DNA of 64,000 bases, from the NCBI RefSeq assembly GCF_033547095.1, contig NZ_CP137852.1:2411501-2475500 (forward strand). Direction: 5' to 3'. The notes beneath the pieces are model-generated. The model was not told the DNA's origin, searched no databases, and was given only the letters and a program-made list of their open reading frames with translations. Both the position numbers and the translations under genes were made by a program. Shown piece after piece: positions 4,054-44,457 of the stretch (positions are counted from its first letter, which is position 1; the number at the start of each line of letters is the position of its first letter). Source of the DNA: Sediminicoccus rosea (GTDB lineage: Bacteria; Pseudomonadota; Alphaproteobacteria; Acetobacterales; Acetobacteraceae).

Positions 4054-5070
4054 TCAGGTGCTGGCGCGCTGGATGATCTCGAAGCGCAGATCCACCGTCG
4101 CCGGCCCCGATTGCCGGCGCGCCAGCCGGTCCAGCAGCATCTGCGCCGAGCGCGTGCCGATCTCGTGCCGCGGCAGGTGCAGCGTGGTGACGGGCGGGTT
4201 CATGTGCGCCAGCAAGTCCACATTGTCGAAGGCGGCGATGGCGACCCGGCCGGGCACCGCCCAGCCGCGGCGCTGGCATTCGAGCAGCGCGCCCGCCGCC
4301 AGCACATCGCCCGCAAAGAAGATGGCGTCCGGCGCCTCGCCCTCCATCAGCCGCGCCACCGCCTCGGCGCCCGAGGCGAGGCCGGGGGGCATTTCCAGCA
4401 TCCAGCGCGGATCGAGCGGCAGGCCCAGCTCCGCCAGCGCCTCCTGGAAACCCAGGCGCCGGTCGCGCGAGCGGGCATTCACGCCGGCCGGCAGGGTGAC
4501 GAGCGCGATGCGCCGGTAGCCGAGCCGCGCCAGATGCCGCGTCATCGCCCGCGCCGCCTCGCGGTTGGAGTAGGAGACGACCATGTCGAGCGGCGTCTCG
4601 GTCAGCGTGCCGTTCTCCACCACCGGCACGCCGGCGCGGCGGATCATCTGCACCGTGCCCTCGGTGTGCAGCGTGTCATGCAGGATGAGGCCCGCCACGC
4701 GCTGCCCGAGGAAGGCGCGGATCGCCGCTTCCTCCGCCTCGGGCCCATAGCCGGAATCGGCGATCATCAGCTGGAAGCCCGCGCGGCGCAGCACGTCGGA
4801 AATGCCCTTCACCGTCGCGGCGAAGAGCGAATTCTCCAGCGAGGGGACGACCAGCCCCACCACCTCCGACCGGCGGGAGGAGAGCGACCCGGCGAGGCGA
4901 TTGGGCACATAGCCCACCTCGCGCACCGCGGCTTCGACGCGCGCGCGCAATTCGGGCGAGACGAGGGCCGGTTCGCGCAGCACGCGCGAGACGCTCATGG
5001 CGGAGACGCCGGCCGCGCGCGCCACGTCGCGCATGCGCGGGCCGGAGCGCGGTTCGGTCATGTCATCCAT
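4054..5070 (-). CDS. LacI-family transcriptional regulator
   Basis: A 338-residue one-component repressor. The N-terminal helix-turn-helix reads 'MRDVARAAGVSAMSVSRVL' near residues 12-30, followed by the hinge helix 'VGYVPNRLAGSLSS'. A periplasmic-binding-protein-like effector domain then runs to the C-terminus. It lies between the SDR/Bug pair upstream and the dehydrogenase/lactonase/Bug genes downstream, all on the same strand, so it likely controls both. The start could also be the ATG three codons in. Its upstream region consists almost wholly of a 27-bp tandem array. Confidence 0.92.
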   Translation of the reverse strand: MDDMTEPRSGPRMRDVARAAGVSAMSVSRVLREPALVSPELRARVEAAVREVGYVPNRLAGSLSSRRSEVVGLVVPSLENSLFAATVKGISDVLRRAGFQLMIADSGYGPEAEEAAIRAFLGQRVAGLILHDTLHTEGTVQMIRRAGVPVVENGTLTETPLDMVVSYSNREAARAMTRHLARLGYRRIALVTLPAGVNARSRDRRLGFQEALAELGLPLDPRWMLEMPPGLASGAEAVARLMEGEAPDAIFFAGDVLAAGALLECQRRGWAVPGRVAIAAFDNVDLLAHMNPPVTTLHLPRHEIGTRSAQMLLDRLARRQSGPATVDLRFEIIQRAST

Positions 5071-5074
5071 GCGG

Positions 5075-5263
5075 CCACTCCACTAGATTGCGCGCATCGC
5101 GCTCCGCGACCCGAACGCGCGCGTCCCGCTCCTCAACTCGGATGCGTGCGTCCCGCTACTCAACTCGAATGCGTGCGTCCCGCTCCTCAACTCGGATGCG
5201 TGCGTCCCGCTCCTCAACTCGAATGCGTGCGTCCCGCTACTCAACTCGAATGCGTGCGTCCCG
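5075..5263. repeat. 27-bp tandem array of seven units derived from the 3' end of the adjacent Bug gene
   Basis: Seven contiguous 27-bp units. Read on the minus strand, the first (5237-5263) is the last nine codons of the Bug gene, encoding RDARIRVE plus TAG. Units 5210-5236, 5183-5209, 5156-5182 and 5129-5155 are near-identical, differing mainly at ATT/ATC and at TAG versus GAG in the last codon. Unit 5102-5128 matches at 21/27 and unit 5075-5101 at 20/27. Because 27 is divisible by three, the phase is kept through the whole array. It fills the space between the Bug stop and the LacI start. Confidence 0.9.
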
Positions 5264-6202
5264 CACGACGCGCGCGATCTTCTCCACCTCCTCGCGATAG
5301 AAGCGGCCGAATTCCTCGGCGCTGCCACCCACCACCTCGGCCCCCATCTCGAGCAGGCGCGCGCGCTCGCTGGGCTCGGCGATCACGGTGTTGAAGGCGG
5401 CGTTGATGCGCTCCACCGCCCGCGGATTCATCCCCGCCGGGCCGAGGCAGGCATACCATTCCTCGATGGCGAAGCCGGGCAGGCCCTGTTCGGCCACCGT
5501 CGGCACATTCGGCAGATAGGCCGCGCGGCTCGCCGAGGTGACGGCGATGGCGCGCAGCGAGCCGTCCCGCACGAAGGGCAGGGTGGAGGAGGCATTGCCG
5601 AACATCAGCTGGATATGCCCGCTCACCAGATCCGCCAGGGCCGGGCCGCCGCCGCGATAGGGCGCGTGCACCATGTCCACCTGCGCTGCGAGCTTGAACA
5701 TCTCCCCCGAGATGTGCACGGCCGAGCCGATGCCGGGCGAGCCGAAGGTCAGCGCCCCCGGCCGAGCGCGGGCGAGCGCGATCAGCTCCGGCACGTTGCG
5801 CACCGGCAGCGAGGGATGCACGACGAGGATGTTGGCGACGCGCGCGAGGTTGATGATGGGGGCGAGGTCCCGCACCGGATCATAGGGCTGGCGCGTCAGC
5901 AGTGCCGCCGAGATCACGGTGGAGGTGACCATGCCGAAGGCATGGCCATCCGGGTTCATCCGCGCCATTTCCGCCGCCCCGATGGCGCCCGAGGCGCCGC
6001 CCCGGTTCTCCACCACCACCGGCTGGCCCAGCAGCGCGGCGAGGCGCGGCTGGAACTGGCGCGCCAGGATGTCCGTCGTGCCGCCCGGCGGCCAGGTGAC
6101 CAGCATGCGAACCGGGCGCGTCGGGAAATCCTGCGCCAGCGCCGGCGTCGCGAGCATGGCGCCGCCCAGCAGGGCCGCGCGGCGGGGTATCGGCATCACC
6201 AT
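5237..6202 (-). CDS. Bug/TctC-family solute-binding protein with 3' end tandemly amplified
   Basis: A 321-residue exported binding protein with signal peptide MVMPIPRRAALLGGAMLATPALAQ, ligand loop 'VTWPPGGTTDILAR' and 'VVENRGGASGAIG'. GGGAGG is 7 nt before the ATG at 6202. The final codons RDARIRVE-stop are the repeat unit of the downstream 27-bp array. Reading through the first TAG would add two in-frame copies (RDARIRVEE twice) before the next TAG. It lies 28 bp behind the SDR gene, so the two are probably co-transcribed. No cognate membrane subunits are present. Confidence 0.9.
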   Translation of the reverse strand: MVMPIPRRAALLGGAMLATPALAQDFPTRPVRMLVTWPPGGTTDILARQFQPRLAALLGQPVVVENRGGASGAIGAAEMARMNPDGHAFGMVTSTVISAALLTRQPYDPVRDLAPIINLARVANILVVHPSLPVRNVPELIALARARPGALTFGSPGIGSAVHISGEMFKLAAQVDMVHAPYRGGGPALADLVSGHIQLMFGNASSTLPFVRDGSLRAIAVTSASRAAYLPNVPTVAEQGLPGFAIEEWYACLGPAGMNPRAVERINAAFNTVIAEPSERARLLEMGAEVVGGSAEEFGRFYREEVEKIARVVRDARIRVE

Positions 6203-6230: not shown

Positions 6231-7025
<795 letters not shown>

Positions 7026-43397: not shown

Positions 43398-43457
43398 GCT
43401 TGTTGCACCGGCTGGGACGCGCCTAGCATCGAGCCGCCCTGAAGGAGCGACCGCGTG

Positions 43458-44426
43458 ATGAGCCTGAAGCGCCGCCATCTCCTGCTCACGCCGCTGGCCA
43501 TGCCGGCCTTGGCGACGGCCCAGACCGACGAGCCCTGGCCCAGCCGGCCCATCCGCTGCATCGTGCCCTTCCCGGCGGGCGGCGGCACCGACCTCGCGGC
43601 GCGGATCGCGACGCGGCGGCTCTCCGAGGCGTTGGGCCAACCCATCGTGATCGAGAACCGGCCCGGCGCGGGCGGCACCATCGGCAGCAACGCGGTGGCC
43701 CGCGCGGCGCCTGACGGCTACACCATCGGCGTCGCCACCACGAGCACGCATCCCGTGGCCACCGTGCTGCAGCGCGACGTGCCCTATGATCCCGTCACCT
43801 CCTTCACCGCCATCACCATGCTGGGCACCACGCCCTATGTGCTGGTGGCCGGGCGCGCCGTGCCGGCGGGCAACCTGGCGGAATTCCTGGCCCATGCGCG
43901 GGCGCGGCCGGGGCAGGTGAGCTATGCCTCGGTGGGGGTGACGACGCTCGGCTACCTGCTGACGCGGCAATTCGAGATGCTGACCGGCATCTCGATGCAT
44001 CACGTGCCCTATCGCGGCTCCTCGCAGGTCTATCCGGACCTGCTGAACGGCACGGTGGGCGTGCTGCTGGACAATCCGCCCGCCTCGGCCGCCATGGTGC
44101 GTGACGGCCAGCTCAAGGCCTTTGCCGTGACCCAGCGCTCCAACCTGCTGCCCGGCGTGCCGACCTTCGAGAGCCTGGGCGTGGCGGGCTTCGACGCCGT
44201 CTTCTGGTATGGGCTGGTGGCGCCCGCGGGCCTGCCGCCCGCCATGGCGGCGCGCATGCAGCAGGCGCTGGCCGCGCATTTCCTCACCGATGCCGGCCGC
44301 GCGGAGATGCGCGCGAGCGACATCGAGCCCGTCATGTCCGCGCCGGCCGCCTTCGCCGCGAGCATTGCCGCCGATTCCGCCCGCTGGCGGGCGCTGGCCC
44401 AGCGCCTCGACATCCGCCCCGAATAG
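43458..44426 (+). CDS. Bug/TctC-family solute-binding protein
   Basis: A 322-residue exported protein: leader MSLKRRHLLLTPLAMPALATAQ, ligand loop 'VPFPAGGGTDLAAR', then 'IVIENRPGAGGTIGSNAVARAAPDGYTIG', the most canonical Bug sequence in the window. AAGGAG lies upstream. GTG at 43455 is an alternative start one codon earlier. It ends 31 bp before the aldolase gene and is probably co-expressed with it, hinting at a sugar-acid or hydroxy-carbonyl ligand (inference). Confidence 0.9.
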   Translation: MSLKRRHLLLTPLAMPALATAQTDEPWPSRPIRCIVPFPAGGGTDLAARIATRRLSEALGQPIVIENRPGAGGTIGSNAVARAAPDGYTIGVATTSTHPVATVLQRDVPYDPVTSFTAITMLGTTPYVLVAGRAVPAGNLAEFLAHARARPGQVSYASVGVTTLGYLLTRQFEMLTGISMHHVPYRGSSQVYPDLLNGTVGVLLDNPPASAAMVRDGQLKAFAVTQRSNLLPGVPTFESLGVAGFDAVFWYGLVAPAGLPPAMAARMQQALAAHFLTDAGRAEMRASDIEPVMSAPAAFAASIAADSARWRALAQRLDIRPE

Positions 44427-44457
44427 GCCCGAACAGGCCCGAACAGGAGAGACCGCC

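Follow-up and report, generated by a model that had tools for sequence, protein, structure and literature searches.

A stop-codon-overlapping 27-bp minisatellite that was probably born from the 3′ end of a Bug solute-binding protein gene

The junction between a Bug/TctC solute-binding protein gene and a LacI-family regulator gene carries a tandem array of seven 27-bp units, at positions 5075-5263 of the window (the whole 64,000-nucleotide stretch of DNA that was analyzed), and the array is in phase with the Bug gene. With a probability that we put at roughly 0.85, this is a minisatellite overlapping a stop codon, born by tandem duplication of the Bug 3′ end, whose units exchange sequence with one another, the coding unit included. 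In the proposed course of events, the last 27 bp of the gene (eight codons and the TAG) would have been duplicated in tandem into a short Bug–LacI gap in a common ancestor of this lineage and Roseococcus sp. SDR, and slippage or unequal recombination would then have altered the copy number, to seven here and three in SDR. Unit 1 would have stayed the gene end under protein selection, the remaining units being non-coding. Exchange that takes in the coding unit would cause units 1-5 to evolve together and would leave the units on the LacI side to drift.

Both genes lie on the minus strand. The Bug gene, taken from the ORF list, spans 5237-6202 and matches Pfam PF03401 (TctC) with an E-value of 1.3e-67; its start at 6202 is assumed, an in-frame ATG being present further upstream at 6253. 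Its TAG stop codon (5237-5239) falls inside unit 1 of the array. Downstream of the array lies the LacI-family gene (4054-5070; Pfam PF00356 and PF13377). Tandem Repeats Finder (TRF) reports a head-to-tail array with a 27-bp unit, within the range of about 10-60 bp considered, at 5078-5264 with 6.9 copies and a score of 269; the second-best score among the 27 TRF rows for the window is 70. A genome-wide similarity search placed the array at a single genomic location at E ≤ 0.001, and a dispersed element of the MIRU or REP type was rejected on this ground.

Read on the minus strand, units 1-7 spell RDARIRVE*, RDARIRVEE, RDARIRVEE, RDARIRVE*, RDARIRVEE, RDARVRVAE and RDARNLVEW, after which come PHG and a TGA overlapping the start of LacI. 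Unit 1 (5237-5263) consists of the last eight codons of the Bug gene, RDARIRVE, and its TAG. Unit 2 (5210-5236) differs from it at one position and unit 3 (5183-5209) at two; unit 4 (5156-5182) is identical to unit 1, and unit 5 (5129-5155) is identical to unit 3. Drift is evident in unit 6 (5102-5128; six differences from unit 1, a 21/27 match) and in unit 7 (5075-5101; seven differences, 20/27), which adjoins LacI. The last codon is TAG in units 1 and 4, GAG in units 2, 3, 5 and 6, and TGG in unit 7. A first-pass annotation of this DNA had described seven 27-bp units that start with the gene's own RDARIRVE-TAG and continue in the same phase, some ending in TAG and others in GAG, with the two units next to LacI diverged to 21/27 and 20/27. 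TRF and our reading of the units agree with this description, and a recount returned the same two values. Its statement that units 2-5 are near-identical also holds, but the homogeneous block is wider than stated and takes in the coding unit, because units 1-5 differ mutually at no more than two of 27 positions.

The origin of the array was sought in homologous loci. Eighty were kept, of which the 34 at ≥60% identity form the comparison (two of them, L063 and L064, with less than 300 nt of downstream sequence); 46 loci at 39-48% identity were set aside, as was L032, a second match in genome G008. The Bug C-terminus reads RDARI in 13 relatives and REARI in seven, so that 20/34 share R(D/E)ARI and the remainder have other forms; the genes end at the same place or within about one codon. 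In 33 of the 34, the gene tail does not recur within ≤300 nt downstream (best ungapped matches, 12-17 of 27). The gene end is, as judged from this comparison of relatives, ancestral and older than the array, and the units derive from it, since the same tail is conserved where the array is absent. This bears out the earlier proposal that the 3′ end of the gene itself, with its stop codon, gave rise to the array.

The sole array among the 34 relatives is that of Roseococcus sp. SDR (L047; L003 is the same place), where three units are present and the tail is matched downstream at 21/27 positions. Within the genus, a Bug orthologue was detected in 12 of 21 genomes (E ≤ 1e-110), and just two of these 12, the window's genome and SDR, carry an array. 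We infer a single origin common to both. Variation in copy number (seven units versus three) is thus seen between species; no second strain of the window's species was found among the relatives, a list that may omit records very near the window's genome. Microhomology was considered as the source of the 27-bp step and rejected: near the stop codon of the 33 array-free relatives, offset 27 gives no longer identical runs than the other offsets from 15 to 60 do, and such a run reaches five bases in one of the 33.

Several features indicate that the array has turned over, as the first-pass annotation had supposed. Unit 1 and unit 4 are identical down to the TAG, whereas their neighboring units end in GAG, and the copy number differs from that of the closest relative. 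The SDR array looks to be decaying rather than homogenized, because its three units differ from one another at 6-9 positions. Two differences (25/27) separate its unit 3 from window units 3 and 5, against six (21/27) from SDR's own gene end, so the array-type states G3, A18, T21 and G25 are probably older than the split between the two lineages. Three of these (G3, A18 and T21) are present in the window's gene end, and SDR's gene end has none of the three. Of 15 outgroup gene ends, hand-picked from the 33 array-free relatives, two have G3 but none has A18 or T21; by eye, A18 and T21 are found in no other same-length tail of the array-free relatives, and T15 is seen in L061 and L006.

The third codon positions of the Bug gene bear on the direction of copying. 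Of 313 third positions in the gene body, 8 pair A/T in the window with G/C in SDR and 21 show the opposite arrangement. Over the final eight codons, A/T in the window faces G/C in SDR at three of eight, a value reached by none of the 306 other eight-codon windows. Based on this excess and on the A18 and T21 states peculiar to the window's gene end, we favor a reading in which non-coding units were copied back into the last codons of the gene and the result was filtered by protein selection; the encoded protein end is unchanged. Differences from unit 1 fall at third positions in 9 of 13 cases in the window (units 3 and 5 share one) and in 6 of 10 in SDR. This lean fits copies that have passed through the coding position, and past translation of the units could also cause it. 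The fuller proposition, in which gene end and array evolve as one concerted unit across the stop codon, the non-coding copies drifting A/T-richer and rewriting the last codons and protein selection at unit 1 filtering the array, is one that we put slightly above even odds. Codon rarity alone was rejected as proof of overwriting. The combination of ATT, CGA and GTT in the last eight codons occurs in none of 563 sampled genes, and CGA is absent from seven neighboring genes, but at least three low-use codons are found in the last eight of 37 of the 563, which makes the argument too weak.

The same minisatellite could also have arisen with the gene end always acting as the source: the ancestral end would have carried CGA and GTT, units would have budded from it, and the SDR end would later have regained G+C-rich codons, with no overwriting at all. 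Turnover from the coding unit would likewise yield the identity of units 1 and 4 and the third-position excess, and few sites decide the matter. However, this account requires A18 and T21 to have been both gained and lost in the SDR gene although none of the 15 outgroup gene ends possesses them, and the rest of the window's gene drifts the opposite way, toward G/C (the 21 versus 8 third positions given above). Reversion of the SDR gene end would, on these few sites, need more changes than back-copying. We regard a gene end that was always the source as a possible but tentative alternative. Because only one relative has an array, the evidence on both origin and copying direction comes from two genomes and few sites.

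A rival of another kind would make the array a maintained regulatory spacer, its copy number tuning LacI (or Bug) through distance, RNA structure or translational coupling. The array does separate the two genes by a wider gap than some relatives have: LacI lies within 300 nt downstream of Bug in 13 of the 34 relatives, and in seven of these loci (L033, L034, L037, L045, L046, L062 and L079) its presumed start is, by our own reading, 2-11 nt past the Bug stop, which suggests that Bug and LacI share one transcript. Translational coupling works best over short distances (PMC12548453), so wider spacing could weaken it at this junction. The array region folds better than dinucleotide shuffles of itself (z = −3.84; 1 of 200 shuffles as good), which leaves room for a role at the RNA level. 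On the other hand, repeats often fold well without any function, 33 of the 34 relatives examined have no array, and two of them (L044 and L058) have long Bug–LacI gaps without one. A search of 4900-5500 returned no terminator-like sites and no promoter-like sites by the sigma-70 consensus, from which promoters of the host's bacterial class may depart. The suggestion that the array forms the LacI promoter therefore finds no support in the sequence, and we set a promoter within the array aside, with the same reservation about the consensus. Tuning of either gene by copy number is possible but unsupported, and a maintained spacer seems unlikely to us. The minisatellite appears instead to have no specific function beyond widening the gap, whose length from the Bug stop to LacI is 166 nt in the window, against 58 nt in SDR. 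GGAG at 5078-5081, in unit 7, is by eye a possible Shine-Dalgarno site for LacI. In SDR (L003/L047), the last unit reads, again by eye, GAG-GAG just before the LacI ATG in place of the GAG-TAG of the gene end, and this could serve as a candidate Shine-Dalgarno site there.

Less probable still is a coding reservoir, in which loss or readthrough of the stop codon would add RDARIRVE octapeptides to the Bug protein stepwise. The period is divisible by three, the frame is closed by TAG only in units 1 and 4, and the SDR frame likewise has no further stop inside its units. Such an extension, which the first-pass annotation had raised, is therefore possible on paper, as is translation of the units beyond unit 1 as a protein C-terminus, with TAG closing unit 1 as it stands. 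It is nevertheless unsupported: the genes of the relatives end at this position or about a codon away at most, conserved residues have been lost in unit 7, and a 23-bp stop-spanning array elsewhere in the genome (described below) shows that the period need not keep the frame. As for an assembly artifact, tandem repeats can be misassembled, but another genome has, at the corresponding junction, a related array with variants of its own, units 6 and 7 can be told apart, and in a two-contig genome a misassembly would be expected to involve more than 189 bp. We consider an artifact very improbable.

The first-pass annotation knew of no described element of this kind, a view contradicted both by published repeats and by further stop-spanning arrays in the same genome. 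In Yersinia pestis, 16 of 88 VNTRs overlap ORFs, ten of them at stop codons, and the ORF-overlapping VNTRs are less diverse than the authors had expected (PMC3689786). As in the Bug array, the ORF stop lies inside the repeat and several units carry a stop triplet. The Y. pestis VNTRs, with units of 8-41 bp at the ten loci, vary in copy number among strains, whereas here a between-species difference is what is seen, and derivation from the gene end is shown by array-free relatives. Arrays of Borgs can also start in gene ends, with the first unit wholly or partly within the gene and the others intergenic, but their units are perfect copies, rich in A, and abound throughout archaeal extrachromosomal elements (PMC9879509), in contrast to an imperfect array on a bacterial chromosome. 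In a marine Beggiatoaceae genome, TAACTGA repeats overlap the upstream stop codon in 13 cases (PMC4679880); these are one dispersed 7-bp motif that brings its own stops and is not made from a gene. MIRUs, too, occupy junctions of neighboring genes, and they are dispersed, seemingly mobile and carry a coupled ORF (PMC12548453), in contrast to the single place of the Bug array.

The array belongs to a known and ordinary kind of bacterial repeat, and the notable part is the apparent concerted change of the last gene codons with the non-coding copies. Word searches of the open-access literature returned no description of concerted evolution between a coding end and a downstream array, and no publication on Roseococcus and tandem repeats. 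Taken together, the array-free relatives, the three-unit relative and the seven-unit window make a clean case of a minisatellite born at a gene 3′ end. If back-copying is true, the codon use of a gene end can be set by turnover of adjoining non-coding repeats, which would matter when codon bias and divergence are interpreted near the ends of genes; if it is not, the case is one of ordinary repeat turnover.

To place the array within its genome, we sampled 780 kb as 39 stretches, each 20 kb long, with 563 genes in all. Gene counts are rough, since genes were called with a simple filter of our own on G+C by codon position, with a minimum length of 240 nt in one survey and 450 nt in the other. 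Eight TRF rows (six distinct arrays by coordinates) score at least 269, none containing a called stop codon, so the strength of the Bug array is unexceptional in the genome. A called stop codon does lie within four distinct arrays, which score between 54 and 113; stop-containing arrays therefore recur in this genome, in weaker form than the 27-bp array. At L139 6777-6845 (G000:C1:1696777-1696845), the last codons of another gene and its TGA are present three times in tandem with a 23-bp unit; the protein of this gene contains TTTGYGD, a putative potassium-channel filter motif. A 17-bp array of 3.4 copies at L149 14340-14396 (G000:C1:4564340-4564396) starts about at the stop codon of a gene. 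The relation to a gene end is less clear for the stop-containing array at L125 5138-5220, and L139 2855-2881 is also among the four.

Other repeats were seen along the way. Three intergenic arrays (L136 2737-2964, L144 8530-8964 and L148 9162-9736) have units of 117-146 bp, and that of L136 looks like a dispersed repeat family because nine further loci of the 39-stretch sample give BLASTN matches to it. A second 27-bp array, with 6.7 copies and 98% matches, lies outside called genes at L148 16556-16735 (G000:C1:4306556-4306735) and has no match in the other sampled loci of the 39 stretches. Within the window, a 10-bp, three-copy array at 44418-44447 covers the stop codon of one called ORF (43455-44426) and lies inside another that overlaps it. 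Finally, at the relative locus L017 (G055), a G-rich tandem repeat of the GGCAGGCCAGGGAGG type, about five copies by eye, is located near the start of the Bug relative, at about 1330-1420 from the start side of the gene.
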